NCBI GenBank assembly: GCA_947446855.1
Contig: CANFIH010000015.1
Location: forward strand, 1-41,656
Direction: 5' to 3'
DNA length: 41,656 nucleotides
Source: Burkholderiales bacterium
Lineage (GTDB): Bacteria > Pseudomonadota > Gammaproteobacteria > Burkholderiales > Burkholderiaceae_C
The first letter of the stretch is position 1; every line of letters starts with the position of its first letter. Positions 4,953-23,433 of the stretch are shown one piece after another. Below the pieces are notes generated by a model, which was given only the letters and a program-made list of their open reading frames with translations, ran no database searches and was not told where the DNA came from. Made by a program: the position numbers and the translations under genes.

Positions 4953-4968
4953 TGGCATGCAAGCTGCT
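4953..4968 (+). promoter_or_regulatory. Candidate sigma54 (-24/-12) promoter, unit starting at 5044
   Basis: The sequence TGGCATG-CAAG-CTGCT keeps the invariant GG and GC at the required spacing; the -12 box has C in place of the first T. It lies about 75 bp upstream of the exported protein gene at 5044. It is weaker than the other -24/-12 sites of this locus. Confidence 0.5.
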
Positions 4969-5043
4969 TCAAGGGGGGCACAACAATAAAGGTGGTTACC
5001 CCACTGTCGCCTGCAGGCGATTCACGATAAGGACATAAAAACA

Positions 5044-5625
5044 ATGCAAACCCTTTTCCAAACACTGTGCGGCCACTGCCGCGTGCTGGCCTTTCTCTCT
5101 CTGCTGGCCATGCTGGCACCGGCCATGGCCTGGGACCTGTCCGGCACCAAGCGCATCAGCGCGATGACCCGGGACCAACAGCTCATCCCGATTGGCACGG
5201 TTGACTTCAAACCACAGCCCGACGGCAATACCGGTTTCACCCTGCACATGGACCATGCGCGCTTCACGGATCACTTTCTGTCGATGAAAGAGTTCAAGTG
5301 CCTGGAAGGCGCAGACGAGGTGATGTGCCACGTGCCCTACCCCTACAAGAACCCGGCCGTGGTTTCCGCCAGCAGCTTCGCCTGGCTGGAACACAGCCTG
5401 CTGTTCCTGTTCAAGCAGCCCAGGGACTTCGGCGCCAAGTTGTGGAATGGCTTGTACTACCGGCTTGAACGCGACGAGGCCGGCCTGGTGGGCACACCGC
5501 AGGCGGTGGACCTGAACCTGATCAGTGCGCCACCCGAGGACCTGTCCACCCCGCCCTACAACGCGGCGCTGCGTGACGACGTGCCGACCGGCGCGCGCTG
5601 GATAGAGCGGCTGTTGATTCGCTGA
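5044..5625 (+). CDS. Exported protein of unknown function
   Basis: This 193-residue protein has a clear signal peptide (VLAFLSLLAMLAPAMA, cleavage after AMA, about residue 29) and a soluble, mixed alpha/beta-looking mature part with a Cys pair (FKC...VMC, about 25 residues apart). I recognise no family. A candidate sigma54 promoter precedes it and a very good one follows it, in front of the NitT-type ABC operon on the same strand. It is therefore probably part of the alcohol oxidation regulon and may act with that transporter in the periplasm. The ATG at 5044 has an AAGGA site about 10 bases upstream. Confidence 0.65.
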   Translation: MQTLFQTLCGHCRVLAFLSLLAMLAPAMAWDLSGTKRISAMTRDQQLIPIGTVDFKPQPDGNTGFTLHMDHARFTDHFLSMKEFKCLEGADEVMCHVPYPYKNPAVVSASSFAWLEHSLLFLFKQPRDFGAKLWNGLYYRLERDEAGLVGTPQAVDLNLISAPPEDLSTPPYNAALRDDVPTGARWIERLLIR

Positions 5626-5637
5626 GGGAGTCTGGCT

Positions 5638-5653
5638 TGGCACGCCACTTGCG
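5638..5653 (+). promoter_or_regulatory. Sigma54 (-24/-12) promoter for the NitT/TauT-type ABC operon
   Basis: TGGCACG-CCAC-TTGCG is a full match to the sigma54 consensus TGGCACG-N4-TTGC. It is in the intergenic space 59 bp before the ATG of the binding-protein gene at 5712. It is the best -24/-12 site I see in the window. Confidence 0.82.
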
Positions 5654-5711
5654 GTTGCTGTGTTAACTTCTAACCATTCGAGACAACACCTGCGGGTGCC
5701 AGCCCTTTTCC

Positions 5712-6722
5712 ATGTTCCTGCGCTCCTTGATCCCCCTTCTTTTCGGCGTATTGATGGCCCTGACAGCCACCACGGCGCCTGCGGCCGATGCCAGTGGTGT
5801 GCCACTGCGCGTGGGAGTGCTCCAGTTTGGAACAGTGGCATGGGAACTGGACGTGATGCAGGCCAACAAACTGGCACAAAAGCGCGGCCTGAATCTGAAG
5901 ATCGTGCCGCTGGCCTCGGGCGATGCCTCCACCGTGGCCCTGCAGGGCGGCGCGGTGGATGTGATCGTGTCGGACTGGATCTGGGTCACGCGCCAGCGCG
6001 CCGAAGGCAGTGCCTATACCTTTACGCCCTACTCCAACGCGGTGGGCTCGGTGATGGTGAAGGCTGACAGCGGACTGCGCAGCCTGACCGATCTCAAAGG
6101 CAAATCCATAGGCGTGAGTGGCGGCCCCACGGACAAAACCTGGTTGCTGCTGCGCGCCTTTGCCCACAAGAAATACGGCATGGACCTGGGAGCAACCGCC
6201 AAGCCGGTGTATGCCGCGCCGCCCCTGCTCAATGAGCTGGCGCTGTCCGGCCAGGTGAACGCTGCGCTCAATGTCTGGCATTTTGATGCCCGACTCGAAG
6301 CCAATGGCATGCGCCCCCTGATCAAGCTGCCGGAAATCCTGGCCGGCCTGGGCGTGGACAAACCGATTCCCCTGATCGGCTGGGTGTTCCGCGAAGACTG
6401 GGCCAACCAGAATCCGCAAACCATGGAGCGCTTCATGGCCGCCTCCATGGAAGCCAAAGCCCTGATGGCCAAAAGCGATGCCGAGTGGGAGCGGCTCAAG
6501 CCCCTGATGCGCGCCGAAGACAACGCCACCTTTCTGGCACTCAAGACCGGCTATCGCAGCGGCATACCCACTTGCGCCGACGCCGACTACGAATCCGGCG
6601 TGGCCACCGTGTTCAAGATACTGGCCGAAACCGGTGGCGAGAAACTGGTGGGCAAGTCCAAGGGCTTGTCGGACGGCACCTTCTGGAGTGGCTTCAAGTT
6701 GCCTGCATGTCCGAAAAGTTGA
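5712..6722 (+). CDS. ABC transporter periplasmic binding protein, NitT/TauT type
   Basis: This 336-residue protein has a signal peptide (residues 1-25, cleavage near PAAD) and the NMT1/SsuA-like periplasmic fold. It starts with VPLRVGVLQFGTVAWELDVM, then has the DVIVSDWIWVTRQR and LKGKSIGVSGGPTDKTWLLL segments that shape the ligand cleft. Family members bind nitrate, sulfonates, thiamine precursors or other small organics; the ligand here is not evident. It is followed by its permease (16-base overlap) and ATPase (ATGA overlap), a complete importer operon. The consensus sigma54 promoter just upstream links it to the alcohol oxidation locus. The ATG lacks a strong ribosome site. Confidence 0.85.
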   Translation: MFLRSLIPLLFGVLMALTATTAPAADASGVPLRVGVLQFGTVAWELDVMQANKLAQKRGLNLKIVPLASGDASTVALQGGAVDVIVSDWIWVTRQRAEGSAYTFTPYSNAVGSVMVKADSGLRSLTDLKGKSIGVSGGPTDKTWLLLRAFAHKKYGMDLGATAKPVYAAPPLLNELALSGQVNAALNVWHFDARLEANGMRPLIKLPEILAGLGVDKPIPLIGWVFREDWANQNPQTMERFMAASMEAKALMAKSDAEWERLKPLMRAEDNATFLALKTGYRSGIPTCADADYESGVATVFKILAETGGEKLVGKSKGLSDGTFWSGFKLPACPKS

Positions 6723-7480
6723 ACTCCGCGCCCGACGCGCCCTCGGGCGCCTGGTCGCGCGTCTGGCCGCTGCTGGCCTTGACCCTGCTCTGGCAACTGG
6801 TCGCCATGCAGGCGCATAGCCGGGTGCTGCCCACGCCGCTGGCGGTGTTTGAGGTGCTGCTGCGCGAAGTCCGCTCCGGCGACTTGCCGTTTCATCTGGG
6901 GCAAACCATTACCCGCGTGGCCATCAGTTTCTGTTTGGCCATGCTGCTGGGCGTGGGCCTGGGCATTTTGATGGGGCGCTCGCGGCGCGTGGACCGGGTG
7001 CTGGACAGCTTTCTGATTCTGGGACTGAACGTGCCGGCCCTGGTCACCACCATCCTGTGCTACATCTGGTTTGGCCTGAGCGAGACTGCCGCCATCCTGG
7101 CCGTCGTGGTCAACAAAATCCCCATGGTGGCGATCAACTTGCGCGAGGGCGCGCGCGCCGTCGACAGCCACCTGATGGAGGTGGCGCAGGTCTACCGCCT
7201 GTCGCGCAGCGCGCGTTTTTTCAAGGTCTATCTGCCGCAGCTCTATCCCTATCTGTTCAGCTCGGCACGCAACGGCCTGGCGCTGATCTGGAAGATCGTG
7301 CTGGTGGTGGAGTTGCTGGGCCGCAGCGATGGCGTGGGGTTTCAGATCGGCAGCTTCTTCCACTTCTTTGACATCACCAGCATCCTGGCCTACACGCTGG
7401 CGTTTTCTGCGCTGATCTTTTTTCTGGAAGCTGCCCTGCTGCGGCCGCTGGAAAACCGTCTGAACCGGTGGCGCACATGA
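6707..7480 (+). CDS. ABC transporter permease, NitT/TauT (SsuC-like) type
   Basis: This 257-residue inner-membrane protein has about six transmembrane helices. The permease EAA-type loop reads REGARAVDSHLMEVAQVYRL and is followed by FFKVYLPQLYPYLFSSARNG, the site that contacts the ATPase. It belongs to the binding-protein-dependent permease family used by nitrate, sulfonate and taurine importers. I chose the ATG at 6707, which overlaps the end of the binding-protein gene by 16 bases; the frame stays open upstream, but only as a shadow of that gene. Its stop overlaps the start of the ATPase gene (ATGA), so translation of the three genes is coupled. Confidence 0.88.
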   Translation: MSEKLNSAPDAPSGAWSRVWPLLALTLLWQLVAMQAHSRVLPTPLAVFEVLLREVRSGDLPFHLGQTITRVAISFCLAMLLGVGLGILMGRSRRVDRVLDSFLILGLNVPALVTTILCYIWFGLSETAAILAVVVNKIPMVAINLREGARAVDSHLMEVAQVYRLSRSARFFKVYLPQLYPYLFSSARNGLALIWKIVLVVELLGRSDGVGFQIGSFFHFFDITSILAYTLAFSALIFFLEAALLRPLENRLNRWRT

Positions 7481-8193
7481 CACTGTCGGTTGCCATCCAC
7501 AGCAAGCGCTTTGCCAACGGCCACTGCGCCATCCAGGACCTGCACTTCACTGCTCGCCCGGGAGAGTTCGTGGCCATCGTCGGCCCCTCCGGTGCAGGCA
7601 AAAGCAGCTTGCTGAAAATCATCAGCGGGCTGGACACGGCCTTTGAAGGCCGGCTGCAACTGCCTGAGGCGGCCCGGGTCGGCTACATGTTCCAGGAGCC
7701 GCGCCTCATGCCCTGGCTGACCGTGGCACAAAACCTGGCCCTGGTGGACCAGACGGCCAGCGGGGCCCGACTGGCCGGGGCCCTGGAGCGCGTGGGCCTG
7801 AAGGATTGCGAGAACCTGTTTCCCAACCAGCTCTCGGGCGGCATGCAGCGGCGCGTGGCCCTGCTGCGCGCCTTTCTGGTGGCGCCGCAATTGCTGCTGA
7901 TGGACGAGCCCTTTCAGTCGTTGGACGCGCCCACGGCAGATCAATTGCGCGCGCATCTGCTGGAACTCTGGCAGGGCACACAGGCCACGGTGCTGTTTGT
8001 GACGCACAGCCTGCAGGAGGCGCTGTGCCTGGCCGACCGGGTGCTGTTCCTCAGCGCCGGACCCGCGCATATCGCGCTGGAACTGCCGCTGGATGTGGCC
8101 AGGCCGCGCGGCCTGGATTCGCCCGCGGTGCAAGCCCTGGCCCAGGAACTGATGCAACGCCACCCGGACCTGCTCAAGGGCCGTGTGGACTAG
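7477..8193 (+). CDS. ABC transporter ATP-binding protein, NitT/TauT type
   Basis: This 238-residue ATPase has all the core motifs: Walker A GPSGAGKSS, Q-loop (YMFQEPRLMPWLTV), signature LSGGMQRR, Walker B LLLMDEPF and the H-loop in VLFVTHSLQEAL. The PRLMPW segment after the Q-loop is characteristic of the SsuB/TauB/NrtD group. It energises import by the preceding permease. The start is the ATG at 7477 within the ATGA overlap. The gene ends the operon and converges on the low-complexity protein gene; no T-rich terminator is visible in the 17-bp gap. Confidence 0.9.
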   Translation: MTLSVAIHSKRFANGHCAIQDLHFTARPGEFVAIVGPSGAGKSSLLKIISGLDTAFEGRLQLPEAARVGYMFQEPRLMPWLTVAQNLALVDQTASGARLAGALERVGLKDCENLFPNQLSGGMQRRVALLRAFLVAPQLLLMDEPFQSLDAPTADQLRAHLLELWQGTQATVLFVTHSLQEALCLADRVLFLSAGPAHIALELPLDVARPRGLDSPAVQALAQELMQRHPDLLKGRVD

Positions 8194-8210
8194 CTCGGCT
8201 GAGCCTGCGA

Positions 8211-9110
8211 CTACACCACGGTGTTGACGCTATTGCCCAGTGGCGAGGCACTGCCCGCAGCGCCATAGCCCAGGTTCTGCTGCAACTGGGTCAGCAAGGC
8301 CTGCAGCGTTACCTGGGTGCCGGTGCCGGTGCCGGTGCCGGTGCCGGTGCCGCCAGCGTCGTTGGCTCCACTGGCGGGCGCAGCCGGCTGCAGATCCGCC
8401 AGCACCTTGGCAAAAGCATCCTGCAACGGCGTGGGGGCCTGGTTGTTACTGGCCTGGCTGATCACGGCGCCCAGGCCGCCGGCAAATTGCGTGTGCCGCC
8501 CCTGGTGCTCACCAAAACGGGAATGCCCGCCAAAGGTGGCTTGCGTGCCGATGTTGATTTGGATGGTGATGCTGGGGGCGCTCGTGCCAGGCGCAGGTGT
8601 TGCTCCGCCGTCAGCGACAACGGGCGTGCTGCCGGCGCTCTCGGCGGTGGTACTGGTGCCCGGCGCAACGGATTGGGCTGCGCGCACGGCCTGAAACAAG
8701 GCATGCATGAAGCTGCGAATGTCGGCCTTAAGTGTGTCGGCCTTGAGAGTGTCGGCGGCTGAAACGGCATTGCCGGGCGACGCAACCGGGTCGGATGCGC
8801 TTGCGCCGGGTGCTGGCGTCGTGCTGCTGGTAGCCGTCGAAGTGGTGGAAGTGGTGGTATCGGTCGGAGCGGTTGTGGTGCCGGCCGTGCTGCCGGTCAG
8901 ACCCAGGCTTTGCAGCGCCTGCATCAGGGCATTTTGCAGCGAACCCTGTCCGCGCGCATCGCCGTGCCCATGCCCGTGGGGCACACGCGCGCCGCCGTCG
9001 TCATCGCCATCCTGATCCGCCGCGCGCCCGGCACGGGTTGGCTGGCTGGGCGCGGCCTGAGCCGTCTGCTGTAAAGAAATGGAAATGGAAAGACCGTCAA
9101 TGCTGCCCAT
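8211..9110 (-). CDS. Low-complexity Thr/Ser/Ala/Gly-rich protein of unknown function
   Basis: This 299-residue protein has no signal peptide that I can defend and no recognised domain. The N-terminal part carries an acidic/His cluster (DQDGDDDGG followed by HGHGHGD, about residues 33-51). Next are a short helix (LQNALMQALQSLGL), a long Thr/Ser/Pro/Ala linker, a repeated TLKAD, and further helix-like segments (DIRSFMHALFQAVRA, LQDAFAKVLADLQ, LQALLTQLQQNLGY). It also has a run of six Gly-Thr pairs encoded by a hexanucleotide repeat. The composition looks like a secreted or surface protein with metal-binding patches. The ATG has an AGGGGG site. It sits within the alcohol oxidation locus, but any functional link is inference. 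Confidence 0.6.
   Translation of the reverse strand: MGSIDGLSISISLQQTAQAAPSQPTRAGRAADQDGDDDGGARVPHGHGHGDARGQGSLQNALMQALQSLGLTGSTAGTTTAPTDTTTSTTSTATSSTTPAPGASASDPVASPGNAVSAADTLKADTLKADIRSFMHALFQAVRAAQSVAPGTSTTAESAGSTPVVADGGATPAPGTSAPSITIQINIGTQATFGGHSRFGEHQGRHTQFAGGLGAVISQASNNQAPTPLQDAFAKVLADLQPAAPASGANDAGGTGTGTGTGTGTQVTLQALLTQLQQNLGYGAAGSASPLGNSVNTVV
8316..8351. repeat. Six tandem copies of GGTGCC
   Basis: Six perfect 6-bp units lie inside the low-complexity protein gene and encode (Gly-Thr)6 on the minus strand. Because the unit is two codons long, slippage would change protein length without shifting the frame. Confidence 0.9.
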
Positions 9111-9211
9111 GGTGCCCCCTCAAAGTGTGGTTGTGTTCCTGTACTTCGACGCATTCCCAGGGAAATGAAGGGGCCAGGGCGACATGCAAGGCTGTGTTTA
9201 CCTGTGCTTAC

Positions 9212-9240
9212 AAAAAGGCGGCGCCAAGGACTTTGCGCCG
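9212..9240 (-). terminator. Rho-independent terminator after the LutE-like gene
   Basis: On the minus strand a CGGCGC / GCGCCG stem (9219-9224 with 9235-9240) with a 10-base loop is followed by two bases and a run of five T (complement of 9212-9216). It lies 23 bp past the stop of the ATPase gene. Confidence 0.55.
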
Positions 9241-9262
9241 GCGCGCCCGCGCAGTGGGCGAC

Positions 9263-10042
9263 TCAGGTCGCGGCGCGGCCCTTGCCTGACGCCTGCGGGC
9301 ACAGCTTGAGGAAGGCCTGCTCCAGACTCAGACCACCGGACTGCGCGATGAGCTCGGCAGGCAGACCATCAAACACGATCTCGCCCTGGTTCAGCACCAA
9401 CACGCGGTCGGCGTTGGCCACCTCGTCCACCAGATGGGTCGCCCACAACACGGCCACTTCACCGGCCTTGGCCAGGGCTTCCACCGAGCGCATCAGGTCA
9501 TGGCGCGAGGCCGGATCCAGCCCCACGGTGGCTTCATCCATCAGCAAGAATTTTGGTTGGTGCAGGAGCGCGCGAATCAGCTCCACCTTGCGCCGGTTGC
9601 CGCCGGACAGGGAGCGCACCGCAGTACCCTCTTGCCCCGACAGGCCGTGCTGCTCCAGTCCGGCCTGGATGCGCTCCTGCGCGGTCTTGCGTGCCATGCC
9701 ATGCAGATCGGTGTGGAACAGCAGGTTGGCGCGGATGCTCAGGTCCAGGTCCAGCGAGGACTGCTGGAACACCACGCCCAGGCCGGCCAGCGCCTTGGGT
9801 GCGTGCTTGCGGATGTCAAAACCCAGCACCGACAAATCGCCCTTGTCGGGCACAAACAGGCCGCTGAGCAACTGCACCAGGGTCGACTTGCCGGCCCCAT
9901 TCGGGCCGAGCAAGGCCACGAACTGTCCGGGGTACAGCGAGATGCTGACAGACTTGAGCGCCACCTTGGCGCCATAGGATTTTTGCAGCGCGGTAGCAAT
10001 CAATACCGGGGTGGCTTGTTCGGTTGGTTCAGGTCGTGTCAT
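9263..10042 (-). CDS. ABC ATPase of the PQQ-dependent alcohol dehydrogenase system (LutE/Ped-like)
   Basis: This 259-residue ATP-binding protein has Walker A GPNGAGKST, Q-loop FQQSSLDLDLS, signature LSGGNRRK, Walker B FLLMDEATVGLD and H-loop WATHLVDEV. The signature LSGGNRRKVELIRALLHQP matches the ABC ATPases tied to PQQ-dependent alcohol oxidation. These are called LutE in methylotrophs, where the LutAEF system serves lanthanide uptake, and part of the pedABC cluster in pseudomonads. Its likely partners, an ABC-2 permease and a binding protein, lie about 12 kb away at 21324-23347. It is divergent from the beta-propeller gene; the intergenic region holds a sigma54 site facing the propeller. 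Transport direction and substrate are inferred from the family. Confidence 0.82.
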   Translation of the reverse strand: MTRPEPTEQATPVLIATALQKSYGAKVALKSVSISLYPGQFVALLGPNGAGKSTLVQLLSGLFVPDKGDLSVLGFDIRKHAPKALAGLGVVFQQSSLDLDLSIRANLLFHTDLHGMARKTAQERIQAGLEQHGLSGQEGTAVRSLSGGNRRKVELIRALLHQPKFLLMDEATVGLDPASRHDLMRSVEALAKAGEVAVLWATHLVDEVANADRVLVLNQGEIVFDGLPAELIAQSGGLSLEQAFLKLCPQASGKGRAAT

Positions 10043-10112
10043 AGGCGTTGGAGTCTACCGCTGTGCAGCAGATTCCGTGCCTGTCACGGTGTGCCATGCG
10101 GGTGACGCGTAT

Positions 10113-10128
10113 TGGCATATATATTGCG
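10113..10128 (+). promoter_or_regulatory. Sigma54 (-24/-12) promoter for the beta-propeller gene
   Basis: TGGCATA-TATA-TTGCG has the invariant GG and GC and an intact TTGC. It is 46 bp upstream of the ATG at 10175, a normal leader distance for a sigma54 transcript. Confidence 0.75.
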
Positions 10129-10174
10129 CAGTTGTCATAAACATGTCGTTGTGACACACCAGAGCGAGACCACC

Positions 10175-11146
10175 ATGCCAATCCATTTTTCCCGCACCCT
10201 GCTGGCCAGTGCCGCCCTGTTGTTGGCGGCCCAGAGCCTGACGGCCCATGCCGACGTGTTTGTCAGCAGCGAAAAAGACAATGCCATCCTGCACATGGAT
10301 GCCGACGGCAAGATCATCCGCACCATTGCCGTCTGCCAGCGCCCGCGCCATATGGCCTGGGCCCGCGACAAGCAGCAAATCATGACGGCCTGCGGCGACA
10401 GCGATGAGCTCGGGGTGATCGACCTCAAGAGCGGCAAGATGCTGGACCACATTCCCACCGGGGAAAGCCCGGAGATATTTTCACTCTCACCCGATGCCAA
10501 GACCGCTTATGTGTCGATCGAGGACGGCAGCCTGATCGCCGCCTACGACGTAGCCAGCAAGAAGCAGGTTTTTTCTGTCAAGACCGGCGCCGAACCCGAA
10601 GGCGTGCTGGCCACGGCCGATGGCAAGACGGTGTACGCCACCTCCGAAGTGGCCAGCACGGTCTACCGCATTGATGTGGAAAAACGCAAGGTGGTGGGGC
10701 AGGTGAAAGTGGGCATGCGGCCGCGCCGCTTTGCCCTCTCCCCCGACGCCAGTGAACTGTGGGTGACCAATGAATTGAGCGCCAGCGTCAGCATCATTGA
10801 CACCACCTCCATGAAGCTCAAGCAGACGCTTGCCTTCAAGGTGCAGGGCATGCGCAACTCCGACATCACCCCCGTGGGCATGACCATGAGCAGTGATGGC
10901 AAGACTGTGTGGGTGGCGCTGGGACGCGCCAACCACGTGGCCGAAATCGACGTTGCCAGCCGCGCCGTCAAGGGCCTGACGCTGGTCGGCAAACGCGCCT
11001 GGGGGTTGACGCTGAGTCCGGACGGCACACGGCTTTACGTGGCCAACGGCATGTCGGATGACATGACCATCATCGACACCGCCAGCCGCAAGGCCCTGAA
11101 AACTGTACCGGTGGGGCGCGAGCCCCACACCATTCTGGTCAATTAG
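10175..11146 (+). CDS. PQQ-dependent catabolism-associated beta-propeller protein
   Basis: This 323-residue exported protein has a signal peptide (LLASAALLLAAQSLTAHA, about residues 9-26). The mature part is a seven-bladed YVTN-type propeller: repeats such as LWVTNELSASVSIIDTTS and LYVANGMSDDMTIIDTAS occur about every 42 residues. It matches the beta-propeller family that accompanies PQQ-dependent alcohol dehydrogenases and the Lut/Ped ABC system. Its exact role is unknown; periplasmic binding or scaffolding is likely. I start at the ATG at 10175; an upstream TTG in frame overlaps the sigma54 promoter and is unlikely. Its stop lies only one base from the stop of the convergent binding-protein gene. 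Confidence 0.85.
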   Translation: MPIHFSRTLLASAALLLAAQSLTAHADVFVSSEKDNAILHMDADGKIIRTIAVCQRPRHMAWARDKQQIMTACGDSDELGVIDLKSGKMLDHIPTGESPEIFSLSPDAKTAYVSIEDGSLIAAYDVASKKQVFSVKTGAEPEGVLATADGKTVYATSEVASTVYRIDVEKRKVVGQVKVGMRPRRFALSPDASELWVTNELSASVSIIDTTSMKLKQTLAFKVQGMRNSDITPVGMTMSSDGKTVWVALGRANHVAEIDVASRAVKGLTLVGKRAWGLTLSPDGTRLYVANGMSDDMTIIDTASRKALKTVPVGREPHTILVN

Positions 11147-11147
11147 G

Positions 11148-12092: not shown

Positions 12093-12581
12093 TCAGGGTT
12101 CGCGGCGGGTTTCCAGATAGGTCTTGATAGACCACATGGCTTCCTGTGTCAGGATGCCTTCAAACGGAGGCATGTAAACACGGCCGTCACGGGCACGGCC
12201 GCGGCGCACGGTGGAAACAAAGTAATCGTTGATTTCCTGGAAGCAGGCCAGCTTCTTTTCATCACTGCCCAGGCTCATGCAATCGTTGTCCAGTTTGCGC
12301 AGATCGGGCGAGACGCCGCCGGAAATCGCCTCCAGGCCGTGGCAACGTGCGCAGTTCTGGTTGTAGGCCGAGGTGCCGATGCGCAGCGCTTCCTTGTGCG
12401 CTTCGCCAGTGGAGTAGGGATTGTTTTCCAGCCACTTGTCTCCGAGTTGGGGCAGTGTGTGCGTGTCCACAGATTGCGGCACCACGTCGCCATGCGCGAT
12501 GGCGACGACGCTGCCCAGTGACATGCAGGCTGCCAAGCCGGCAGCGATCCAAACGCGGTGTGTACGAAAGAATGATTTCAT
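12093..12581 (-). CDS. pedF: Cytochrome c550, PedF family
   Basis: This 162-residue periplasmic c-type cytochrome has a signal peptide (VWIAAGLAACMSLGSVVAIA, then HGD). One haem site reads CARCH, the distal Met is in YMPPFEG, and the PedF-specific middle reads NDCMSLGSDEKKLACFQEIN with a likely disulfide pair. PedF/ExaB-type cytochromes take electrons from PQQ-dependent ethanol dehydrogenases and pass them to the oxidase. The start is the ATG at 12581; the frame extends upstream through the promoter and is not used. A sigma54 promoter lies 45 bp upstream. It is divergent from the AcoR-type activator gene. Confidence 0.92.
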   Translation of the reverse strand: MKSFFRTHRVWIAAGLAACMSLGSVVAIAHGDVVPQSVDTHTLPQLGDKWLENNPYSTGEAHKEALRIGTSAYNQNCARCHGLEAISGGVSPDLRKLDNDCMSLGSDEKKLACFQEINDYFVSTVRRGRARDGRVYMPPFEGILTQEAMWSIKTYLETRREP

Positions 12582-12625: not shown

Positions 12626-12641
12626 TGCAAATATCGCGCCA
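12626..12641 (-). promoter_or_regulatory. Sigma54 (-24/-12) promoter for pedF
   Basis: Read on the minus strand: TGGCGCG-ATAT-TTGCA. It differs from TGGCACG-N4-TTGCA at one non-invariant base. It is 45 bp upstream of the pedF ATG and faces pedF and the XoxJ-like gene. Confidence 0.75.
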
Positions 12642-12701
12642 GCAAAAAAACACCTTGCCATGTGCCAATGTGACAAATTGACGCAACCACGGACCCTGTA
12701 G

Positions 12702-12717
12702 CGGCCCACATATTGCT
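12702..12717 (+). promoter_or_regulatory. Possible sigma54 promoter of the activator gene itself
   Basis: CGGCCCA-CATA-TTGCT keeps GG, GC and a perfect TTGCT, but the -24 box has C for the first T and C for A. It lies 36 bp before the start at 12754. If used, it would give positive autoregulation. Confidence 0.4.
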
Positions 12718-16213: not shown

Positions 16214-16234
16214 CAGATTAACAAAAAGTGCTAA

Positions 16235-17959
16235 TTAAGATTTAGGCAGCTTGAAAGTCCACACGGAACCGCCTTGTTCCAGCATGTTGACCTTCTTGGC
16301 CACTTCGCCACCCCACAGCGGAACCGCACCACCCCAGCCGGAAACCACGCTGATGTACTGCTCGCCGTCTTGCGTCCAGGTGATGGGAGGAGCCACCACG
16401 CCGGAGCCGGTCTGGAATTGCCACAGCACCTTGCCGGTCTTGGCATCCGCTGCCTTCAGGAAACCTTCAGGCGTGCCCCAGAACACCAGGTCGCCGCCGG
16501 TAGCCAGAACGCCACCCCACAGAGGCGCGTTGTTCTTGACTTCCCAGGCCATCTTGCCGGTCTTGGGGTCATAGGCACGCAGGGAGCCGATGTGGTCGTC
16601 ATACAAAGGCTTGATGGTGAAACCCGCACCCAGGTAAGCGCCGCCCTTTTTATAGCTGATGGGTTCGTTCCAGATGTCCATGCCCCATTCATTGGAGGGC
16701 ACAAAGAACATCTTGCTCTTGGGGCTGTAGGCCATGGGCATCTGGTTCTTGCCGCCCAGGAAGCCTGGGGATGCGAACACGGAAGTGCCCTTCTTGCCGT
16801 CGCCACCGGCTGCTGCCGGATCGCCAGGACGGTTTTCAGGCACGAAGTTGGGACGGCCCGACGCGATGTCGATGCCCTTGGCCCAGGTGATGCCATTGAC
16901 GAACGGGAAGGCGTTGGCCAGCTTGCCGCTGGTAGCGTCGATCACGTAGAAGTAACCGTTACGGTCGGCCTTGCCGCCCATGCGCTTGCCGTCCATGTCG
17001 AAGGTGATGAACTCGTTGACGCCGTCAAAGTCCCATGCGTCGTTGGGCGTACCTTGGTAGCTCCAGACAATCTTGCCGGTCTTGACATCAATCGCCACAG
17101 TGGAGGTGGAGTACAGGTTGTCGCCCTTGCGCACGTGGCTGTTCCAGGGGCCGGGGTTGCCGGTACCGAAATAAGCCAGACCGGTCTTGGCGTCATAGGT
17201 GCCGCCGAGCCAGGTGGCGGCTCCTCCGGTCTTCCATGTCTCACCCGGCCAGGTGGCGTTGGTGGTACCGGAGATGCCATTTTCCTTGCCGTTGAGGTAG
17301 CCCATATGGCCTTCCACCACGGGGCGGCTCCAGACCATCTTGCCGGTCTTGGGGTCGCGTGCTTCCACGCGGCCGACCACGCCGAACTCGCCACCGGACA
17401 CGCCGGTGAGCAGCAGGCCTTCAGCAATCAGGGGGGCAGCGGACATGCTGTAGCCAGCGGCGTAGTCGTCCACTTTTTCTTTCCAGACCACTTTGCCGGT
17501 GTCCATATCCAGGGCAACCAATTGGGCGTCCAGGGTGCCGAAAATCACCAGGTTGCCGTACAGGGCGGCGCCACGGTTGACCACGTCGCAGCAAGGCATG
17601 ATGCCTTCTGGCAGGCGGTGCTCATACTTCCAGAGCTTCTGGCCGGTCTTCACATCCACGGCGAACAAACGCGAGTAGGAAGCGGTGACAAACATCTTGC
17701 CGTTGTAAACCAGGGGTTGCGACTCTTGGCCGCGCTGCTTTTCACCGCCGAAAGACATGGACCAGATTGGCACCAGGTTCTTGACGGTCTTGGTGTTGAC
17801 GGCGTCCAGGGACGAGTAGCGCTGACCTTGTGTGCCCATACCCCAGCTCAGAACAGAGCTGTTGTCGGTGGCGTCATTGGTGATCATGGCGTCGGTAACC
17901 TGCGCAGACACATGGGCTGTGGCGGCCATCATGAGTAGGGCGAATAGTGTTTTCTTCAC
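16235..17959 (-). CDS. PQQ-dependent alcohol dehydrogenase, ExaA/PedH-like, lanthanide type
   Basis: This 574-residue periplasmic quinoprotein starts at a GTG (AGGAG site 8 bases upstream) and has a signal peptide cleaved after VSA, residue 19. The eight-bladed propeller carries the vicinal disulfide C123-C124 in MPCCD, the metal-ligand region SGGEFG (E191), GTGNPGPWN (N268) and the catalytic segment NDAWDFDG with D310. The residue two after the catalytic Asp is Asp (D312), where calcium-type enzymes have Ala or Ser. That is the accepted marker of lanthanide-dependent XoxF and PedH enzymes. The surrounding sequence is closer to ExaA/PedH ethanol dehydrogenases than to MxaF. It oxidises primary alcohols and passes electrons to cytochrome c. 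A good sigma54 promoter lies about 100 bp upstream and a terminator follows. Confidence 0.93.
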
Positions 17960-17992
17960 GTGTATGTCTCCTGGCGAATTGTTGGCTGTTTC

Positions 17993-18008: not shown

Positions 18009-18058
18009 ACTCCGGACTGCTTTGCTGCTTGCAAGGCAAGGGCCCGTAGGTCACTTTC

Positions 18059-18074
18059 CGCAAGGACTGTGCCA
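18059..18074 (-). promoter_or_regulatory. Sigma54 (-24/-12) promoter for the quinoprotein dehydrogenase
   Basis: Read on the minus strand: TGGCACA-GTCC-TTGCG, with TGGCAC and TTGC both intact. Predicted transcription begins about 90 bp before the GTG start. The 130-bp space up to the ApbE gene stop would hold activator sites. Confidence 0.8.
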
Positions 18075-18158
18075 ATAGCAAACGGCACATTTATTCACTA
18101 CAAACCGGAAATGATTTCAGGGTAAACGTGAACACAGGCAGCGCCGTGGACGCTACAG

Positions 18159-18185
18159 CCTGTGACAGTGTTGCATTTTGAAACA
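18159..18185. promoter_or_regulatory. Possible upstream activator site for the dehydrogenase promoter
   Basis: The stretch holds TGTGACA (18161-18167) and then a 7-3-7 imperfect inverted repeat TGTTGCA-TTT-TGAAACA (18169-18185, one mismatch). It is about 85-110 bp upstream of the -24 box, the usual position for an enhancer-binding protein. TGTGACA also occurs near three other sigma54 promoters of this locus. Confidence 0.3.
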
Positions 18186-18201
18186 GCGCAACTGCGCCGC
18201 T

Positions 18202-19200
18202 TCAGACCGGACGCAATGGCACACCGGCACTGGCACGCCAGCGCCCTTGTTTGTCCACCACCAGCACATCGACGTCCCAGGCCCGGGCCAGCGGCAGCGC
18301 CTGCGCAAAACCGGCCATGAAGAATACTTTGGTAAGCGCGTCGGCCCGCACCGCGCTGGCGGCCATCACCGTCACGCTGGACAGATCGCGCGGCGAATAG
18401 CCGGTGTGGGGATCAAAGATGTGGTGGTTAACAAAGTCGGGGCTGAAGATGCATTGGTCATCGGCCGACGTGGCCAGACAACGCCCTTGCAAGGCAATCG
18501 CGGCGACGCGTTGCTGCGCATCGCGCGGATTGGCCACGCCCAGGGTCCAGTCGCCGGTGTGCGCCGGCCGGCCCAGGGCAGACCACTCGCCGGCATCAAC
18601 CAGTGCATGTGCAATGCCCAGGCTTTGCAGACGCGCCTTGACCTTGTCAGCGGCAAAACCCTGTGCGATGCCATTGAGCGTGATGCCCATGCCGGGACGT
18701 TGCAGCCGCACCGCAGCGTCTGTCACCTGCAGACCGCGCCAACCCACGTATCTGCGTGCGGCCTGCACCTCGTGGGCCGTCGGCAAGCGCCCCAGGCTTT
18801 TGGCATTCTCAAAGGCCTGCCACAGGGGTTGCACCGTGACATCAAACGCGCCCTGGCTGCGTTGCGCCACCTGCTGGGCCAGGCGCAGGATTTCCAGCAT
18901 GTCGGGATGGGGGTGCAGCAACACGCCGCTGCGGTTGAGCCGGCAAATCGCGCTGTCCGGGCGAAACATGCTCATCTGGTCCTCGATGTGGCGGATCTCG
19001 GCCACGGCCGCATCCAGCGCATCGATGGCCGCCAGCGTGTCGGCATGGGCCACCTGCAGCGTCATGGCCGTCCCCATGGCGGTCAAGGTCCGACTCACCC
19101 ATTCCAACTCGTGCGGGCCCGTCGTGCTGGAGGCCACCAGGCCCGCCGCCGCCGTAGCGCCCAGTCCCAGGCCCCATTGCAACAAGGTTCTGCGTTTCAT
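18202..19200 (-). CDS. apbE: ApbE, FAD:protein FMN transferase
   Basis: This 332-residue exported protein has a Tat-like N-terminus (MKRRTLLQWGLGLGATAAAGL) and the ApbE fold. Landmarks are MGTAMTLQV at the start, MSMFRPDSAICRLNR, the LNGIAQGFAADKVKARL segment, VDAGEWSALG, HHIFDPHTGYSP and the late Asp in RADALTKVFFMAG for Mg-FAD binding. ApbE attaches FMN covalently to a Thr in partner proteins. Its start overlaps the stop of the NosR-like gene by ATGA, so the NosR-like protein is the obvious target. The VDAGEWSALG motif varies from the usual NAGGDxxxxG, but the catalytic Asp is in place. Confidence 0.9.
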   Translation of the reverse strand: MKRRTLLQWGLGLGATAAAGLVASSTTGPHELEWVSRTLTAMGTAMTLQVAHADTLAAIDALDAAVAEIRHIEDQMSMFRPDSAICRLNRSGVLLHPHPDMLEILRLAQQVAQRSQGAFDVTVQPLWQAFENAKSLGRLPTAHEVQAARRYVGWRGLQVTDAAVRLQRPGMGITLNGIAQGFAADKVKARLQSLGIAHALVDAGEWSALGRPAHTGDWTLGVANPRDAQQRVAAIALQGRCLATSADDQCIFSPDFVNHHIFDPHTGYSPRDLSSVTVMAASAVRADALTKVFFMAGFAQALPLARAWDVDVLVVDKQGRWRASAGVPLRPV

Positions 19201-21311
19201 GGTTTACCTCCCACGGGGACGATAGGAATCACTGGCCCCGTCTTGCGCGCGTTGTTGTAGAGCGGCACACACAAGGTCTCGCTCTCGTAAATGACCACAC
19301 AGTCCATGCACTGAAAGCATTCTTCGTAGTCGATTTTTCCGCTCTTCTCAATGGCCTGGTAGGCGCAATCGCTGCGGCAGCGCTGGCAGGGCTGGCCACA
19401 TTCGCTGCGGCGCGCGATCCAGTCGAAGCGGCGCAAGCGCCCCAGCAGGCCCATGCCCGCCCCCAGGGGACAGAGGTAGCGGCAATAGCCCTTGTAGAAG
19501 AAGGCACTCAGCAGCACCGTGGCCACAGCCCACAGCACATACGGCCAGGCGCGCACGAAGTTCAGCGTGATACTGGTCTTGAACGGCTCCACCTCAACCA
19601 GCCGGTCCGTCCAGCTGACAGAGAGACAGGCCGACAGCAGGATGAACGCCAATACCCCGTACTTCACGCGCTTGAGTTGCCTGTCCAGCGCGGTGGACAC
19701 GCGCAGGGCTTTCAGACCCAGGCGCTGCGTCACTTGGCTGATCAGTTCCTGCAAGGCGCCAAAGGGGCAGAGCCAGCCGCAGAAGGTGCCACGGCCCCAA
19801 AGGAAAAAGCTCACGGCCACAAACAGCCAGAGCAGCACCGTCATCGGGTCGTAGAGGAAAAATGCCAGGCTGCGCTGCGCCAGCGCCGACTGGATCACGG
19901 CGGTGAAATTCACAATCGAGAGTTGCCCCTGTGCATACCAACCGATAAAGAACAGGGTGAACAGCAAGTAGCCGGTGCGGAAGCGATTGAGGCGCTGCGG
20001 GCTGGCGGTTAGCCACTTCGGTTTGCCCAGAGCCCAGGCCAACAAGGCCAGGCCGGCGACCAGGATGACCAGTTCCCACCAGCGCGAGGTCCAGCTCAGC
20101 ACCCAGGACTTGCTGTCGGAGCTGGCCGCCTGAAAATAGTCGTCGGGCAACTGTGCCCTGAAGGCAAAGCTCTTGTTCACCACTTCGGGCATGAACTGGC
20201 CCTTGCTGCGGTTGACCAGCAGTTCAAAGTCCAGTGGCTGCGAGGGATCCAGGCCGGCCGGGGCAATCACCCGGAACACGCGCCACTGCGCGTCGCGCAA
20301 ATCGTCCGGCACATTCAGCGGGGTGTCCAGATCGAGATCACGCATTTCCAGCGGAAGCTTGTTCTGGTTCAGCGTCAGGCGGTCCGGTACGGTGCCGCGC
20401 TGAAAGTCTTCGCTGACGATGCCGTAGCGCCCCTTGGCCATGACCAACAGGGCATGGTCGCCCGGGTCCAGGCGCTTCTGGATGTAATCCCAGGTCTGGG
20501 CGGGCAGCAGGTTGCGCCCGGCACTGGGCACGTTCAGGTGGGCGAAGTAGAGCTCCACAAACGGCGCATCCGGTGCGCGGCGGGCTTCGTCATCGAGCCC
20601 CTCGCCCACCGTGCCCTTGAAGGCCGCCTCCACTTCGGAATTCTTGAACACCTTCTTCGTGACCAGACCGGCCTTGAGCAGCCCCTTCCAGTCCAGCGCC
20701 TCGTACACCTCGGGGCGGATGCGGGCAATCAGGTCCGGGTCGGCACCGGTGCTGTAGCCCATCTTGGCGCGCGCCACCTTGAGCGAGGCGGCCAGCAGGC
20801 TCTGGTTCAGGATGCGCACCGAGGCCGTGGCCTTGGCCACACCGTCGATGTACACGTTGGCGCTATTGGCCTTGGCTGAACTGCTCTGGTTCAGACCGAT
20901 TTTGATGCTCTGCTTGAGCGACAGGTTTTTGTACTGCTCGACAAACTTGAACAGGGGCTGCTGGCCCAGGCCATCCAGAAACACCGGCTCATGCTGCGAC
21001 AGCACCTTGACGTCCATGAACTTGCCCTCCTTGTCCAGCGCCACCAGCAGATTGAAGGGCGTACCGGAAAAGCCGGGGATGGCGGCAAAGTCGATGGACT
21101 CAAAGGCATAGGCAACGACCGAGGTGCTGGTGAGGTCCTGCGCAAAGATCGGCCAGACGGGCAGGTCCCGCTCTTTCTCGCCCACCACCAAAGGCGCGGG
21201 GAAGGCCTGCGCCATGGACTCCCGGGTCATCACGCCGGCCTGCGCCGCGCCCATGCACAGCAGGCCCAGGAGTACAAGCCAGATTCGCAGCCGATGCAAC
21301 ATGCAGCACAT
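19197..21311 (-). CDS. NosR/NirI-like membrane Fe-S flavoprotein
   Basis: This 704-residue protein has a signal peptide (IWLVLLGLLCMGAAQA) and a long periplasmic region (about 25-410) with an FMN-binding-like part ending VDGVAKATASVR-like at IDGVAKATASV. Several membrane helices follow, then a cytoplasmic polyferredoxin tail. The Fe-S and membrane motifs are CGWLCPFG, CRYLCPLG, CGQPCQRCRSDC and CFQCMDC, the NosR/NirI pattern. NosR proper supports N2O reductase, but no nosZ or denitrification gene is present; here the gene lies in the alcohol oxidation locus. The usual flavinylation motif SGAT reads AKAT, with the acceptor Thr retained. It is coupled to apbE by an ATGA overlap and follows the ABC permease gene after 12 bp. 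The ATG at 21302 is an alternative start. Confidence 0.82.
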   Translation of the reverse strand: MCCMLHRLRIWLVLLGLLCMGAAQAGVMTRESMAQAFPAPLVVGEKERDLPVWPIFAQDLTSTSVVAYAFESIDFAAIPGFSGTPFNLLVALDKEGKFMDVKVLSQHEPVFLDGLGQQPLFKFVEQYKNLSLKQSIKIGLNQSSSAKANSANVYIDGVAKATASVRILNQSLLAASLKVARAKMGYSTGADPDLIARIRPEVYEALDWKGLLKAGLVTKKVFKNSEVEAAFKGTVGEGLDDEARRAPDAPFVELYFAHLNVPSAGRNLLPAQTWDYIQKRLDPGDHALLVMAKGRYGIVSEDFQRGTVPDRLTLNQNKLPLEMRDLDLDTPLNVPDDLRDAQWRVFRVIAPAGLDPSQPLDFELLVNRSKGQFMPEVVNKSFAFRAQLPDDYFQAASSDSKSWVLSWTSRWWELVILVAGLALLAWALGKPKWLTASPQRLNRFRTGYLLFTLFFIGWYAQGQLSIVNFTAVIQSALAQRSLAFFLYDPMTVLLWLFVAVSFFLWGRGTFCGWLCPFGALQELISQVTQRLGLKALRVSTALDRQLKRVKYGVLAFILLSACLSVSWTDRLVEVEPFKTSITLNFVRAWPYVLWAVATVLLSAFFYKGYCRYLCPLGAGMGLLGRLRRFDWIARRSECGQPCQRCRSDCAYQAIEKSGKIDYEECFQCMDCVVIYESETLCVPLYNNARKTGPVIPIVPVGGKP

Positions 21312-21323
21312 GGTCCGGAGCCC

Positions 21324-22181
21324 TCAACCGCGTTGTTTGATCCAACCGCGCTGCGGGTCGTAACCGCGCAAGGCCAGACCAAAACAGACGATGCAGCCAA
21401 CCAGCACCACGGCCAGCGCCTGGGCATTGAACTGGCCTTGCAGCGCAAAGCGGATCAGCTCCACCACATAGGTGAACGGGTTTGCCTGTGCGATCTGCAC
21501 CAGCCACAAGGCACCCGATTCCTCCACCTTCCACAGCGGATAGAGCGCCGTGCTGATGAAGAACATGGGGAAGATGACAAAGTTCATGGTGCCGGCAAAG
21601 TTTTCCAGCTGCTTGATGTAGACCGACAGCATCAGACCCAGCGCGGCCAGCATGGTGGCGCCCAGCGCCATCACCGGAATCGCCAGCAGCCAGTTGGCCA
21701 GATCGGCCTCCACACCGAAGGCCAGGGCGATCAGCAGAAACACCAGCATCTGCAGCAGGGACAAAGCGGTGGAGGCCACCAGCTTGAAGGCCAGCAGCCA
21801 ACCGCGCGGCAGCGGCGCGGTGAGCAGCAGGCGCATCACCCCCATCTCGCGGTCGTAGACCATGGAGAGTGAGCTTTGCATGCCGTTGAAGAGCGCAATC
21901 ATGCCCAAGAGGCCGGGCAGCATATAGACCTTGTATTCCACATAGGTCTCGTAGGGCGGGATGATGGCCACGCCGAACACATTGTGAAAGCCGGCTGAGA
22001 AAACCACAAACCACAGCAGCGGGCGCACCAGGCTGGAAGCCAGGCGCGAGGGCTGGCGCAAAAATTTGAGCATCTCGCGCCCGACCACCGCGCGCAGCGC
22101 GCGCGCCAGGTGCAGCAGCAGTGGCGTAGGCGCTGGAGGTGGCGCCAAGGGCACCGGGGGCCTCAGGGGCGTGCTTTGCAT
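21324..22181 (-). CDS. ABC-2 type permease of the PQQ alcohol dehydrogenase system (LutF/Ped-like)
   Basis: This 285-residue membrane protein has six predicted helices and the ABC-2 signatures REMLKFLRQPSRLASSLVRPLLW near the N-terminus, MVYDREMGVMRLLLTAPLPR and MNFVIFPMFFISTALYPLW. It matches the permease that pairs with the LutE-like ATPase of PQQ-dependent alcohol systems. Its ATPase partner is not adjacent but at 9263-10042. It overlaps the end of the binding-protein gene by 19 bases, so the two are co-expressed from the sigma54 site at 23418. ABC-2 permeases are often exporters, yet the methylotroph Lut homologue is implicated in lanthanide import; direction here is not evident. Confidence 0.85.
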   Translation of the reverse strand: MQSTPLRPPVPLAPPPAPTPLLLHLARALRAVVGREMLKFLRQPSRLASSLVRPLLWFVVFSAGFHNVFGVAIIPPYETYVEYKVYMLPGLLGMIALFNGMQSSLSMVYDREMGVMRLLLTAPLPRGWLLAFKLVASTALSLLQMLVFLLIALAFGVEADLANWLLAIPVMALGATMLAALGLMLSVYIKQLENFAGTMNFVIFPMFFISTALYPLWKVEESGALWLVQIAQANPFTYVVELIRFALQGQFNAQALAVVLVGCIVCFGLALRGYDPQRGWIKQRG

Positions 22182-23347
22182 GCGCTCTCCTTCTCGTCAA
22201 AACCCAGGGTATCCAGCACCTCGGTGGGGTGCATCACGCCTTCAAACGGCGCCACGGCGGCCACGCCATCGGCGTGACCCAGAAACACCGGCTGGCGCAG
22301 CTGCCCGTCCCAGGCGCGGAAGGTCAGGCGCGGCCCCTTGAAACCATCGATCGCCACCTGGCCGCTGCGCAGCAGCTTGAGCTGCTCCGGCACCGTAGAC
22401 CTGGGGTTTGTCGTCACCACACCGACCACGGCCTTCACCGCCGCCCAGGCCGCCCAGTCCTGACCGGACATGGGGCGGTGGGTGGCGCGCACGAAGCGGC
22501 GTGACAGCTGCGGCCCGCCATTCAGATCCCACTGCGGATGCCAGGCCAGGGCCACCAGCCCGTTGGCGCCCAGTACCGGGCGCGGCCATTGCGTGTTGTA
22601 GGGCACGCCGCGGGCAAATTCGCCATCGCTGTCCATCACCGCCACCACGTCATAGGCCTTGTCGTTGGTCAGCAAACGCACGTTGCTTTGCTCGCGTTCA
22701 CGTGGATCGGTGGACAGCTTGAAGGCGGTTTGCTTGGCGACCTTGACGCCATAGCGCTTGGCCGAACGCAAAAAGGCATCCAGCTGCAGTTTGTCCTGGG
22801 CACGGGGACCATAGAGCACCAGGGACTGGCTCCAGGAGCGCGCCGCCAGATACTGCGCCAGCGCATCGGCGCGCATGGCTTCGCTCGGGTAGGTATGCAA
22901 CAAGCCGGCCATGCAGCCAGCACCGCGCAGTTCGTCCAGGCCGGACCCAATGTTGAAGAAAATGGCTGGCTCGAGGACCGCCGGCGCACTGGCCAGGGCT
23001 GTTTTCATAGCATCATCCGGCAGATCCAGCAGCACATACTGCACCCGGGCCGCCTTCATCTGGGCCAGGGTTTTTGGCAGGTCGGCTGCGTTAGCGGCCA
23101 TGAAGCTTTTCACCACCAGCTTTTGCCCTGCGGCCGCCACCTCGGGCTCCGACTCGTCCAGCGACAGCGCGGCTGCTTCCAGGGCACGACCGCCAGGCTG
23201 GCCGGGGTAGTTGTGTTCCAGCCGGCGGGGTTGGTAGCGTGCATCGTCCTGCATACCCAGCACGCCCACGGTCAAGGTGGCAGCAAGGGTTATCTGCTGC
23301 GTGCAGGCCAGGCCCAGCAGCAGGCAGTGTTTCAATCCGGTTCGCAT
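22163..23347 (-). CDS. Periplasmic binding protein of the PQQ alcohol dehydrogenase ABC system (LutA-like)
   Basis: This 394-residue exported protein has a signal peptide (LLLGLACTQQITLA) and a branched-chain-amino-acid-type periplasmic fold. It begins ATLTVGVLGMQDDARYQPRR, where the RYQPRRLEHNYPGQPGGRA segment is a hallmark of the PQQ-linked binding-protein family. An Asp-rich DLPDDAM and an RTYPS-like HTYPSEAMRADALAQYL follow. In methylotrophs the LutA homologue belongs to the lanthanide uptake cluster. The start is the ATG at 23347 or the adjacent GTG at 23350, which is better spaced from the GGAG site. A sigma54 promoter lies about 70 bp upstream. It heads a run of minus-strand genes through permease, NosR-like and ApbE. 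Confidence 0.83.
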   Translation of the reverse strand: MRTGLKHCLLLGLACTQQITLAATLTVGVLGMQDDARYQPRRLEHNYPGQPGGRALEAAALSLDESEPEVAAAGQKLVVKSFMAANAADLPKTLAQMKAARVQYVLLDLPDDAMKTALASAPAVLEPAIFFNIGSGLDELRGAGCMAGLLHTYPSEAMRADALAQYLAARSWSQSLVLYGPRAQDKLQLDAFLRSAKRYGVKVAKQTAFKLSTDPREREQSNVRLLTNDKAYDVVAVMDSDGEFARGVPYNTQWPRPVLGANGLVALAWHPQWDLNGGPQLSRRFVRATHRPMSGQDWAAWAAVKAVVGVVTTNPRSTVPEQLKLLRSGQVAIDGFKGPRLTFRAWDGQLRQPVFLGHADGVAAVAPFEGVMHPTEVLDTLGFDEKESACKARP

Positions 23348-23417
23348 CACAGGGGCTATCTCCGTCTCGTTATTCTTGCGGTTCGCGTGTTCAAAATGTG
23401 ACACCTGGCCGCAACGG

Positions 23418-23433
23418 CGCAAGTTTGATGCCA
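23418..23433 (-). promoter_or_regulatory. Sigma54 (-24/-12) promoter for the LutA-LutF-NosR-ApbE unit
   Basis: Read on the minus strand: TGGCATC-AAAC-TTGCG, with invariant GG and GC and an intact TTGC. It is 71 bp upstream of the ATG at 23347. TGTGACA lies just downstream at 23397-23403. Confidence 0.75.

Follow-up and report, generated by a model that had tools for sequence, protein, structure and literature searches.

A sigma54-type locus for PedH-type alcohol oxidation with a resident AcoR-like activator and a likely shared enhancer dyad in a Burkholderiales bacterium

A 41,656-nucleotide stretch of a Burkholderiales bacterium genome (contig CANFIH010000015.1 of assembly GCA_947446855.1; hereafter the window, 0.93% of the genome) carries a 19-kb locus for alcohol oxidation, in which a quinoprotein alcohol dehydrogenase gene, the cytochrome gene pedF and several transport genes lie behind -24/-12 sites of the sigma54 type, with the gene of an AcoR-like sigma54 activator in their midst. 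The locus is probably a set of sigma54-type units for alcohol oxidation of the PedH type, which depends on pyrroloquinoline quinone (PQQ), and the activator likely switches most of these units on through a 17-bp dyad, TGTNNCANNNTGNNACA. The genes and sites are as follows, with the sites scored on a sigma54 weight matrix whose values were typed from recall (maximum 19.3 bits):

4953..4968, plus strand: sigma54-type site before the exported-protein gene (exp), 15.5 bits
5638..5653, plus strand: sigma54-type site before nmtABC, NitT/SsuABC-like ATP-binding cassette (ABC) genes, 16.4 bits
5712..8193, plus strand: nmtABC, for an NMT1-type binding protein, a permease and an ATPase (NCBIfam and Pfam matches)
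9263..10042, minus strand: pedB-like ATPase gene (TIGR03864, 311.5 bits, cut-off 302.25)
10067..10082, minus strand: additional sigma54-type site before pedB, 12.0 bits
10113..10128, plus strand: sigma54-type site before the beta-propeller gene, 15.1 bits
10175..11146, plus strand: pedA2-like YVTN beta-propeller gene (TIGR03866, 286.4 bits, just under the cut-off of 287.3)
12093..12581, minus strand: pedF, cytochrome c550 gene (TIGR04494, 204.6 bits, cut-off 122)
12626..12641, minus strand: sigma54-type site before pedF, 16.3 bits
12702..12717, plus strand: weak sigma54-like site facing the activator gene, 10.8 bits
12754..14946, plus strand: AcoR-like sigma54 activator gene (GAF, AAA+ with GAFTGA, Fis-type helix-turn-helix; Pfam PF01590, PF00158, PF02954)
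16235..17959, minus strand: PedH-type quinoprotein alcohol dehydrogenase gene (TIGR03075, 748 bits)
18059..18074, minus strand: sigma54-type site before the quinoprotein gene, 15.6 bits
18202..21311, minus strand: genes for an ApbE-like flavin mononucleotide transferase and a NosR-like membrane protein (family matches)
21324..23348, minus strand: pedC permease and pedA1-like binding-protein genes (TIGR03861, 352.3 bits, cut-off 241.35; TIGR03863, 404.4 bits, just under 413.6)
23418..23433, minus strand: sigma54-type site before pedA1-pedC-nosR-apbE, 12.2 bits

The activator has the Walker A motif GETGTGKD in its AAA+ domain (PF00158, 223.7 bits) and, as an initial annotation of this DNA had claimed, an intact GAFTGA loop. 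It is also the only enhancer-binding protein gene seen in the window, again as claimed, yet its AAA+ region is matched at nine other places of the genome. At E<=1e-120 it is the single activator of its subfamily there, and the same genome has an rpoN match above the family cut-off. An aspartate two residues after the catalytic aspartate marks quinoprotein alcohol dehydrogenases of the lanthanide type. The enzyme of the window has this residue, within the motif WDFDGVNE as in the structures 6zcv and 6zcw (the former presumably PedH) versus WDFSGNNE in 1flg, and is predicted to be of the lanthanide-dependent PedH type. The pedA1-, pedA2-, pedB- and pedC-like genes fall into three units of the window, each with its own sigma54-type site, and by family match likely encode a lanthanide importer of the PedA1A2BC type. 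The alcohol metabolism to which the initial annotation had assigned the locus can be sharpened, as far as gene content goes, to lanthanide-type alcohol oxidation. The run that begins with pedA1 and pedC also holds nosR and apbE, which occur in 15 and 14 of the 18 stretches from relatives, respectively.

All seven -24/-12 elements of the initial annotation are present at the positions and on the strands that it gave, with GG and GC correctly spaced; the site before pedB had been missed. The window has six sites of at least 14 bits versus 2.2 expected. Five of the six best belong to the earlier seven and the sixth, at 7501 on the minus strand, falls within nmtC, while the 12.2-bit (23418) and 10.8-bit (12702) sites have no significance on the window alone. 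Enrichment over the genome, which the initial annotation had proposed to check, was indeed found with the matrix against a 385-kb sample of the same genome. Gene-facing sites of at least 15 bits number four in the 19-kb locus (0.10 expected), two in the sample and none in the remaining 22.7 kb of the window, and at 13.4 bits or more the locus has four against 0.2 expected from the sample. The exp site at 4953 is left out of these counts because a spurious open reading frame (ORF) covers it. Since many contigs of this non-random sample were picked for strict hits or activator genes, its bias runs against the enrichment finding. The strict pattern itself, TGGCAYRN4TTGC, occurs 26 times in the genome versus eight times for the reversed control, and three of the 26 occurrences lie in the window. 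Another six are copies of a contig-end repeat (C12, C19, C131, C148, C149, C332), probably a mobile or repeated element, which holds a near-perfect sigma54 match, TGGCACGGCATTTGCT, of 18.9 bits.

Conservation was followed in two sets of relatives. The genus set comprises stretches from the 17 genus relatives that match the quinoprotein among 100 genomes searched, to which a complete genome from a different genus in the family (G121) was added; the wider set comprises 80 loci (1.55 Mb) around relatives of the activator. Before the quinoprotein gene a sigma54 site is found in all 18 relatives of the genus set with G121 (12.3-18.1 bits), and at 12 bits or more in 12 of 14 wider loci, L056 and L071 failing; its TGGCA and TTGCG are kept in a nine-sequence alignment. 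Before pedF the site reaches at least 13.4 bits in 10 of 10 relatives and at least 13.5 bits in 27 of 27 wider loci. The beta-propeller gene has its site in five of seven relatives (15.1-15.9 bits), the other two having the gene behind pedB, and pedB has its own site in six of seven (11.2-14.6 bits). The pedA1-like gene has a site in seven of 11 relatives, the remaining four having pedA1 behind the beta-propeller gene, and TGGCAYCAWWCTTGC at this site is kept in all seven relatives in which pedA1 heads the run. Orthologues of nmtA have sites of 16.4 bits (L037) and 14.9 bits (L041), and two further orthologues, which stand behind pedC or pedB, have none. Upstream of apbE, nosR and sbp3, taken as negative controls, the best site is at most 9.0 bits in 37 of 37 regions of the relatives set, and about three of 34 reach 11 bits in the wider loci (sbp3 at 15.9 in L081, nosR at 11.5 and 11.0). 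Orthologues of the exported-protein gene have no sigma54 site upstream (0/3 in the wider loci, 0/2 in the relatives set). The site facing the activator gene, which the initial annotation had described as a weaker one, does exist at 12702, at only 10.8 bits and with matches in three of the eight relatives tested (10.7-12.5 bits); firm autoregulation of the activator was rejected on these grounds. Overall, the case for the sites is one of strength, placement and conservation in the sequence, not of loose matching.

A second element accompanies these sites. It is a 17-bp dyad, TGTNNCANNNTGNNACA, with 10 fixed letters, which was detected by eye in the pedF upstream sequences of relatives and is scored here as matches out of 10, or in bits on a weight matrix trained on sequences outside the window. 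An exact enumeration of 5-base dyads in the pedF upstream regions reached a maximum of three sequences, equal to shuffles. The dyads of the window are these:

18151..18185, strand not assigned: tandem dyads before the quinoprotein gene, 18169-18185 (10/10) and 18151-18167 (8/10), centres 103 and 85 bp upstream of the -24 box
12661..12685, strand not assigned: two overlapping 9/10 dyads in the pedF/activator interval, 12661-12677 and 12669-12685
5818..5834, strand not assigned: enhancer-like dyad TGCTCCAGTTTGGAACA within nmtA, 20.2 bits, centre 188 bp downstream of the start of the -24 box
23388..23403, minus strand: one-base-shorter dyad TGTCACATTTTGAACA just downstream of the pedA1 promoter (-12 box), 15.4 bits, spacing variable

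The dyad at 18169 is the best of the window (22.7 bits), and the genome has three perfect dyads in all, this one included. The other two, on contigs C69 and C248, were rejected as promoter enhancers: the 3-kb locus on C248 has no sigma54 site of at least 12.5 bits and that on C69 has one, 1.3 kb off. Perfect and one-mismatch dyads number 56 in the genome versus 43 for the reversed control; genome-wide matches are thus mostly chance, and a whole-genome regulon is not readable from the dyad alone. The centre of the dyad at 12669 lies 36 bp from the -24 box of pedF and 25 bp from that of the activator. The nmtA dyad is the second best of the window, and 385 kb of the genome hold no dyad of at least 18 bits. 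L037 has a counterpart of 16.3 bits at the homologous place in nmtA, 178 bp downstream from where the -24 box starts; it is the best dyad of that 22-kb locus despite one residue difference. Three of the four fixed codons under the nmtA dyad are rare, and CTC, GGA and ACA, which make up 11% of Leu, 8% of Gly and 10% of Thr codons in 18 window genes, are used in both the window and L037. The dyad is absent from nmtA in L041, G121 and G310. For the shorter variant at pedA1, shuffling gives p = 0.017, and related sequences stand in an eight-sequence alignment.

Evidence for the dyad as a partner of sigma54 sites comes from the wider set. Its 80 loci hold 125 dyads of at least 9/10, and these pair 87 times with sigma54 sites, mostly from 50-200 bp upstream, at 73 promoters spread over 54 loci; the pair counts for five control dyads are 3, 0, 1, 1 and 0. 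When all 103 pairs within -600 to +800 bp are taken, the dyad precedes the -24 box by 0-225 bp in 88, most often in the 75-100 bp bin, lies downstream in eight and lies 300-650 bp upstream in seven; judged by spacing, this histogram is that of an enhancer. The selection of the 73 promoters used the dyad and the sigma54 site and took no account of the gene. Behind 72 of them, the first ORFs include 19 PQQ alcohol dehydrogenases, 18 aldehyde dehydrogenases of the ExaC model, 11 pedF-type cytochromes, six PqqB-type and three PqqC-type proteins (the family cut-off was passed by two of four PqqB-type proteins tested and by both of two PqqC-type ones) and five ORFs over the binding-protein gene behind pedF, which the ORF rule took in place of pedF. 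In total, 62 of the 72 are PQQ alcohol dehydrogenase, ExaC-type, pedF-position or PQQ-synthesis genes, and the other 10 are two TonB receptors, one aldehyde ferredoxin oxidoreductase, one AcoR-like regulator and six without a match. The exaC and PQQ-synthesis genes played no part in finding the dyad, so that its recurrence there is not circular.

The same pairing is seen closer to home. Among the genus relatives with G121, 13 of 18 quinoprotein regions have a dyad of 9/10 or better and all 18 have one of 8/10 or better; few parts of this region are kept as well as the first dyad copy and the beginning of the second. The pedF region has a 9/10 dyad or better in eight of 10 relatives of this set and in 17 of 27 wider loci. 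In the beta-propeller/pedB region, dyads of 9-10/10 are present in four relatives (beta-propeller 3/5, pedB 4/6). Gene content points the same way: among the 100 genus genomes, the 13 with a close quinoprotein (at least 82% identity) are the 13 with a close activator (at least 60%), the present genome included. Five more have a quinoprotein at 67-76% identity, four of them with an activator match at 44-47%, and another 33 have only a 41-45% activator relative and no quinoprotein match at E<=1e-200. The activator adjoins pedF in 27 of the 80 loci. Elsewhere in its own genome, exaC (G000:C225 around 4972, L150) has one 9/10 and three 8/10 dyads upstream. No pqqB match was found in this genome and its pqqE match is weak and below cut-off, though a PQQ enzyme is encoded; with assembly completeness at 87%, the PQQ-synthesis genes may be absent or may just not have been assembled.

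A number of observations weigh against the proposed control of these units through the dyad. The loose consensus (up to three mismatches) matches the window 107 times against a shuffle mean of 120.7, which is chance level, and in the 27 pedF regions the opposite strand reaches 13.4 bits in seven and the reversed sequence in two. Since pedF and the quinoprotein gene are where the dyad was first noticed, its recurrence there is partly circular, and the 80 loci are interrelated and were picked by activator similarity. In these wider loci 10 of 27 pedF regions lack a 9/10 dyad, and only four of 12 quinoprotein regions have one (11 of 12 at 8/10 or better). Two of ten control dyads, ACANNGTNNNACNNTGT and CTGNNACNNNGTNNCAG, reach 9/10 in nine and six of the 18 quinoprotein regions of the relatives, which is attributed to the tandem arrangement. 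Control dyads also reach 8/10 in up to three of five beta-propeller and four of six pedB regions, so that an 8/10 dyad says little there.

Other points of this kind concern single promoters or genomes. Within the window, a mere 28-36 bp separate the pedF dyads from the -24 box, and the dyads of pedA1 and nmtA are unusual in standing downstream of the promoter. The beta-propeller/pedB region offers no more than a degenerate dyad (4.5 bits at best, p about 0.29), and a scan found no good dyad near the exp promoter. Outside it, L041 has the 14.9-bit nmtA site yet no nmtA dyad, the sigma54-like site of the genome's own exaC has TTGAT instead of TTGC with the -12 GC altered, G327 encodes a quinoprotein but shows no match to the activator at E<=1e-120, and the 18-kb stretch of G310 has dyads but no activator (one lies elsewhere in that genome).

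The activator might have a narrower role, in which it serves the quinoprotein gene and pedF only and the sites of exp, nmt, pedA1 and the beta-propeller/pedB pair, real in themselves, answer to other activators or to none. The quinoprotein gene and pedF are the sole promoters of the window with canonical upstream dyads, and the genome encodes further sigma54 activators. Against this stand the 9-10/10 dyads in the relatives' beta-propeller/pedB region, the conserved variant beside pedA1, and the 20.2-bit dyad in nmtA with its 16.3-bit counterpart at the same place in L037; such a restriction appears rather unlikely. A chance origin of the sites in GC-rich DNA can be given hardly any credence and was already disfavoured: the chance-level loose consensus, the weak 12702 site and the unconserved exp site are what one would expect of it, and it is contradicted by the conservation in 18 of 18 quinoprotein and 10 of 10 pedF regions versus none of the 37 regions upstream of apbE, nosR and sbp3, as well as by the enrichment of strong gene-facing sites over the genome sample.

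A different division of labor would have a LuxR-type response regulator, with or without sigma54, as the main inducible control, as with PedR2 in Pseudomonas or exaA in Azospirillum, and would leave the AcoR-like protein to aldehyde metabolism. Azospirillum exaA is described as needing both sigma54 and a LuxR-type regulator (PMC6115532), and the Ralstonia exaC gene is predicted to be under AcoR (PMC4676750). This arrangement is improbable for the present locus: the dyad-sigma54 arrangement stands before 19 quinoprotein genes as well as 18 exaC-type genes, the activator adjoins pedF in a third of the wider loci (27/80) and co-occurs with the quinoprotein, and the families matched by 30 window proteins include no LuxR-type regulator, in a scan that left out some window ORFs and the rest of the genome.

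The preferred reading, control of most units by the AcoR-like activator, starts from what the sequence shows, namely which sites and dyads are present, how far each is conserved, and that in relatives the two stand together in front of alcohol-oxidation genes. From the co-location of dyads, promoters and activator, the activator is predicted to bind the dyad. Its GAF domain would sense an alcohol-derived or related signal (at a guess from its targets, an alcohol or an aldehyde), activator dimers would bind the dyads, and the GAFTGA loop of the AAA+ domain would open sigma54-RNA polymerase at the -24/-12 sites. The sigma54 alcohol-oxidation regulon with its own AcoR-type activator that the initial annotation put forward is supported by site conservation and by the dyads at the quinoprotein gene and pedF. 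Its further claim that the one protein drives all these promoters is too broad. Predicted control is best supported at the quinoprotein gene, with tandem dyads about 100 bp upstream, and at pedF; it is fairly supported for nmtABC, with an intragenic dyad, and for pedA1-pedC-nosR-apbE, where a spacing variant of the dyad is all that is present. For the beta-propeller/pedB pair, whose dyad in the window is degenerate, support comes from relatives only, and for the exported-protein promoter, which has no dyad, such control is not supported.

The NitT-type transporter and the exported protein, both of which the initial annotation had tied to alcohol metabolism, differ accordingly in standing. The link of the transporter is supported by the strong dyad within nmtA and by its neighborhood: nmtABC adjoins or lies near alcohol or importer genes in all five loci with close nmtA relatives (the window, L037, L041, G121 and G310), of which three were chosen because they contain the activator or the quinoprotein, and G121 is the only one that came from a search with nmtA by itself. 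At E<=1e-60, nmtA is matched in two of 299 family genomes, the present one included. The exported protein is tied to the system by neighborhood only, its promoter having no dyad and its orthologues no site; in L071 and L035 exp follows the quinoprotein gene or the cytochrome gene that goes with it, and in G335 and G121 it stands at another place beside the cluster. By the cluster of G121 there is also a TonB receptor gene (L159, 1618-3840; best family PqqU, 523 bits, cut-off 1200) with a 16.8-bit sigma54 site at its start, a candidate for outer-membrane uptake of PQQ or metal. In the window, 8211-9110 is an ORF without a family match that contains a run of GGTGCC-type repeats, and 38020-40029 is a single ORF with an ArsA-type ATPase after a thioredoxin-like domain (TIGR04291, 721.5 bits, and TIGR00412).

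Parts of this arrangement are known elsewhere. Another AcoR-type activator system is acoD/AcoR of Cupriavidus. The putative targets of the present activator subfamily are, by gene family, mostly alcohol-oxidation genes, and the protein of the window is AcoR-like by its domains. In Ralstonia solanacearum, Rsc3129/Rsc3128 pair an AcoR-like sigma54 activator with ExaC in ethanol and acetaldehyde catabolism, and rpoN1 is required for growth on ethanol; the likeness is in the activator, but the available text names only exaC as a target (PMC4676750), whereas here the quinoprotein gene, pedF and the importer units bear sigma54 sites. The ped cluster of Pseudomonas putida KT2440 likewise has a PedH-type quinoprotein, PedF and a PedA1A2BC-type importer (PMC6839425, PMC12997753), the latter described as needed for growth at low lanthanide (PMC6839425). 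Its regulators are described as PedR1 and PedS2/PedR2 (PMC13390443), in contrast to the sigma54 activator within the cluster here. The exaA gene of Azospirillum brasilense is a PQQ alcohol dehydrogenase gene with sigma54 dependence (Singh et al. 2017, as cited in PMC6115532), but its partner is described there as LuxR-type, unlike the AAA+ activator with GAFTGA found here. BmoR of Thauera butanivorans resembles the present protein, by description only, as an alcohol-responsive sigma54 activator with an upstream site, but is reported to control a butane monooxygenase (PMC8899819).

Among the full-text literature matches listed, none reports this enhancer, and none, bar the citation of Azospirillum exaA with its LuxR-type partner, puts a PQQ or lanthanide alcohol regulon under a sigma54 activator. 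As far as searched, AcoR/sigma54 control of exaC is known or predicted, while the lanthanide-type regulon and its enhancer would be new. Beyond this locus, one may entertain, tentatively and with somewhat more doubt than confidence, that an AcoR-like subfamily of Burkholderiales and beyond is a master switch of PQQ alcohol oxidation. A single 17-bp enhancer, TGTNNCANNNTGNNACA, would then unite alcohol dehydrogenase, its cytochrome, PQQ synthesis, acetaldehyde dehydrogenase and, in this lineage, the lanthanide importer, with some enhancers downstream of the promoter and even in coding sequence, and the activator would take the place of the Pseudomonas two-component rare-earth switch.

To our knowledge, the control of lanthanide-type alcohol oxidation outside Pseudomonas and the methylotrophs is largely open. 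With a named enhancer and a named activator, the proposal is directly testable in culturable relatives. It predicts members of the regulon, the NitT transporter among them, and it could yield a new alcohol sensor.

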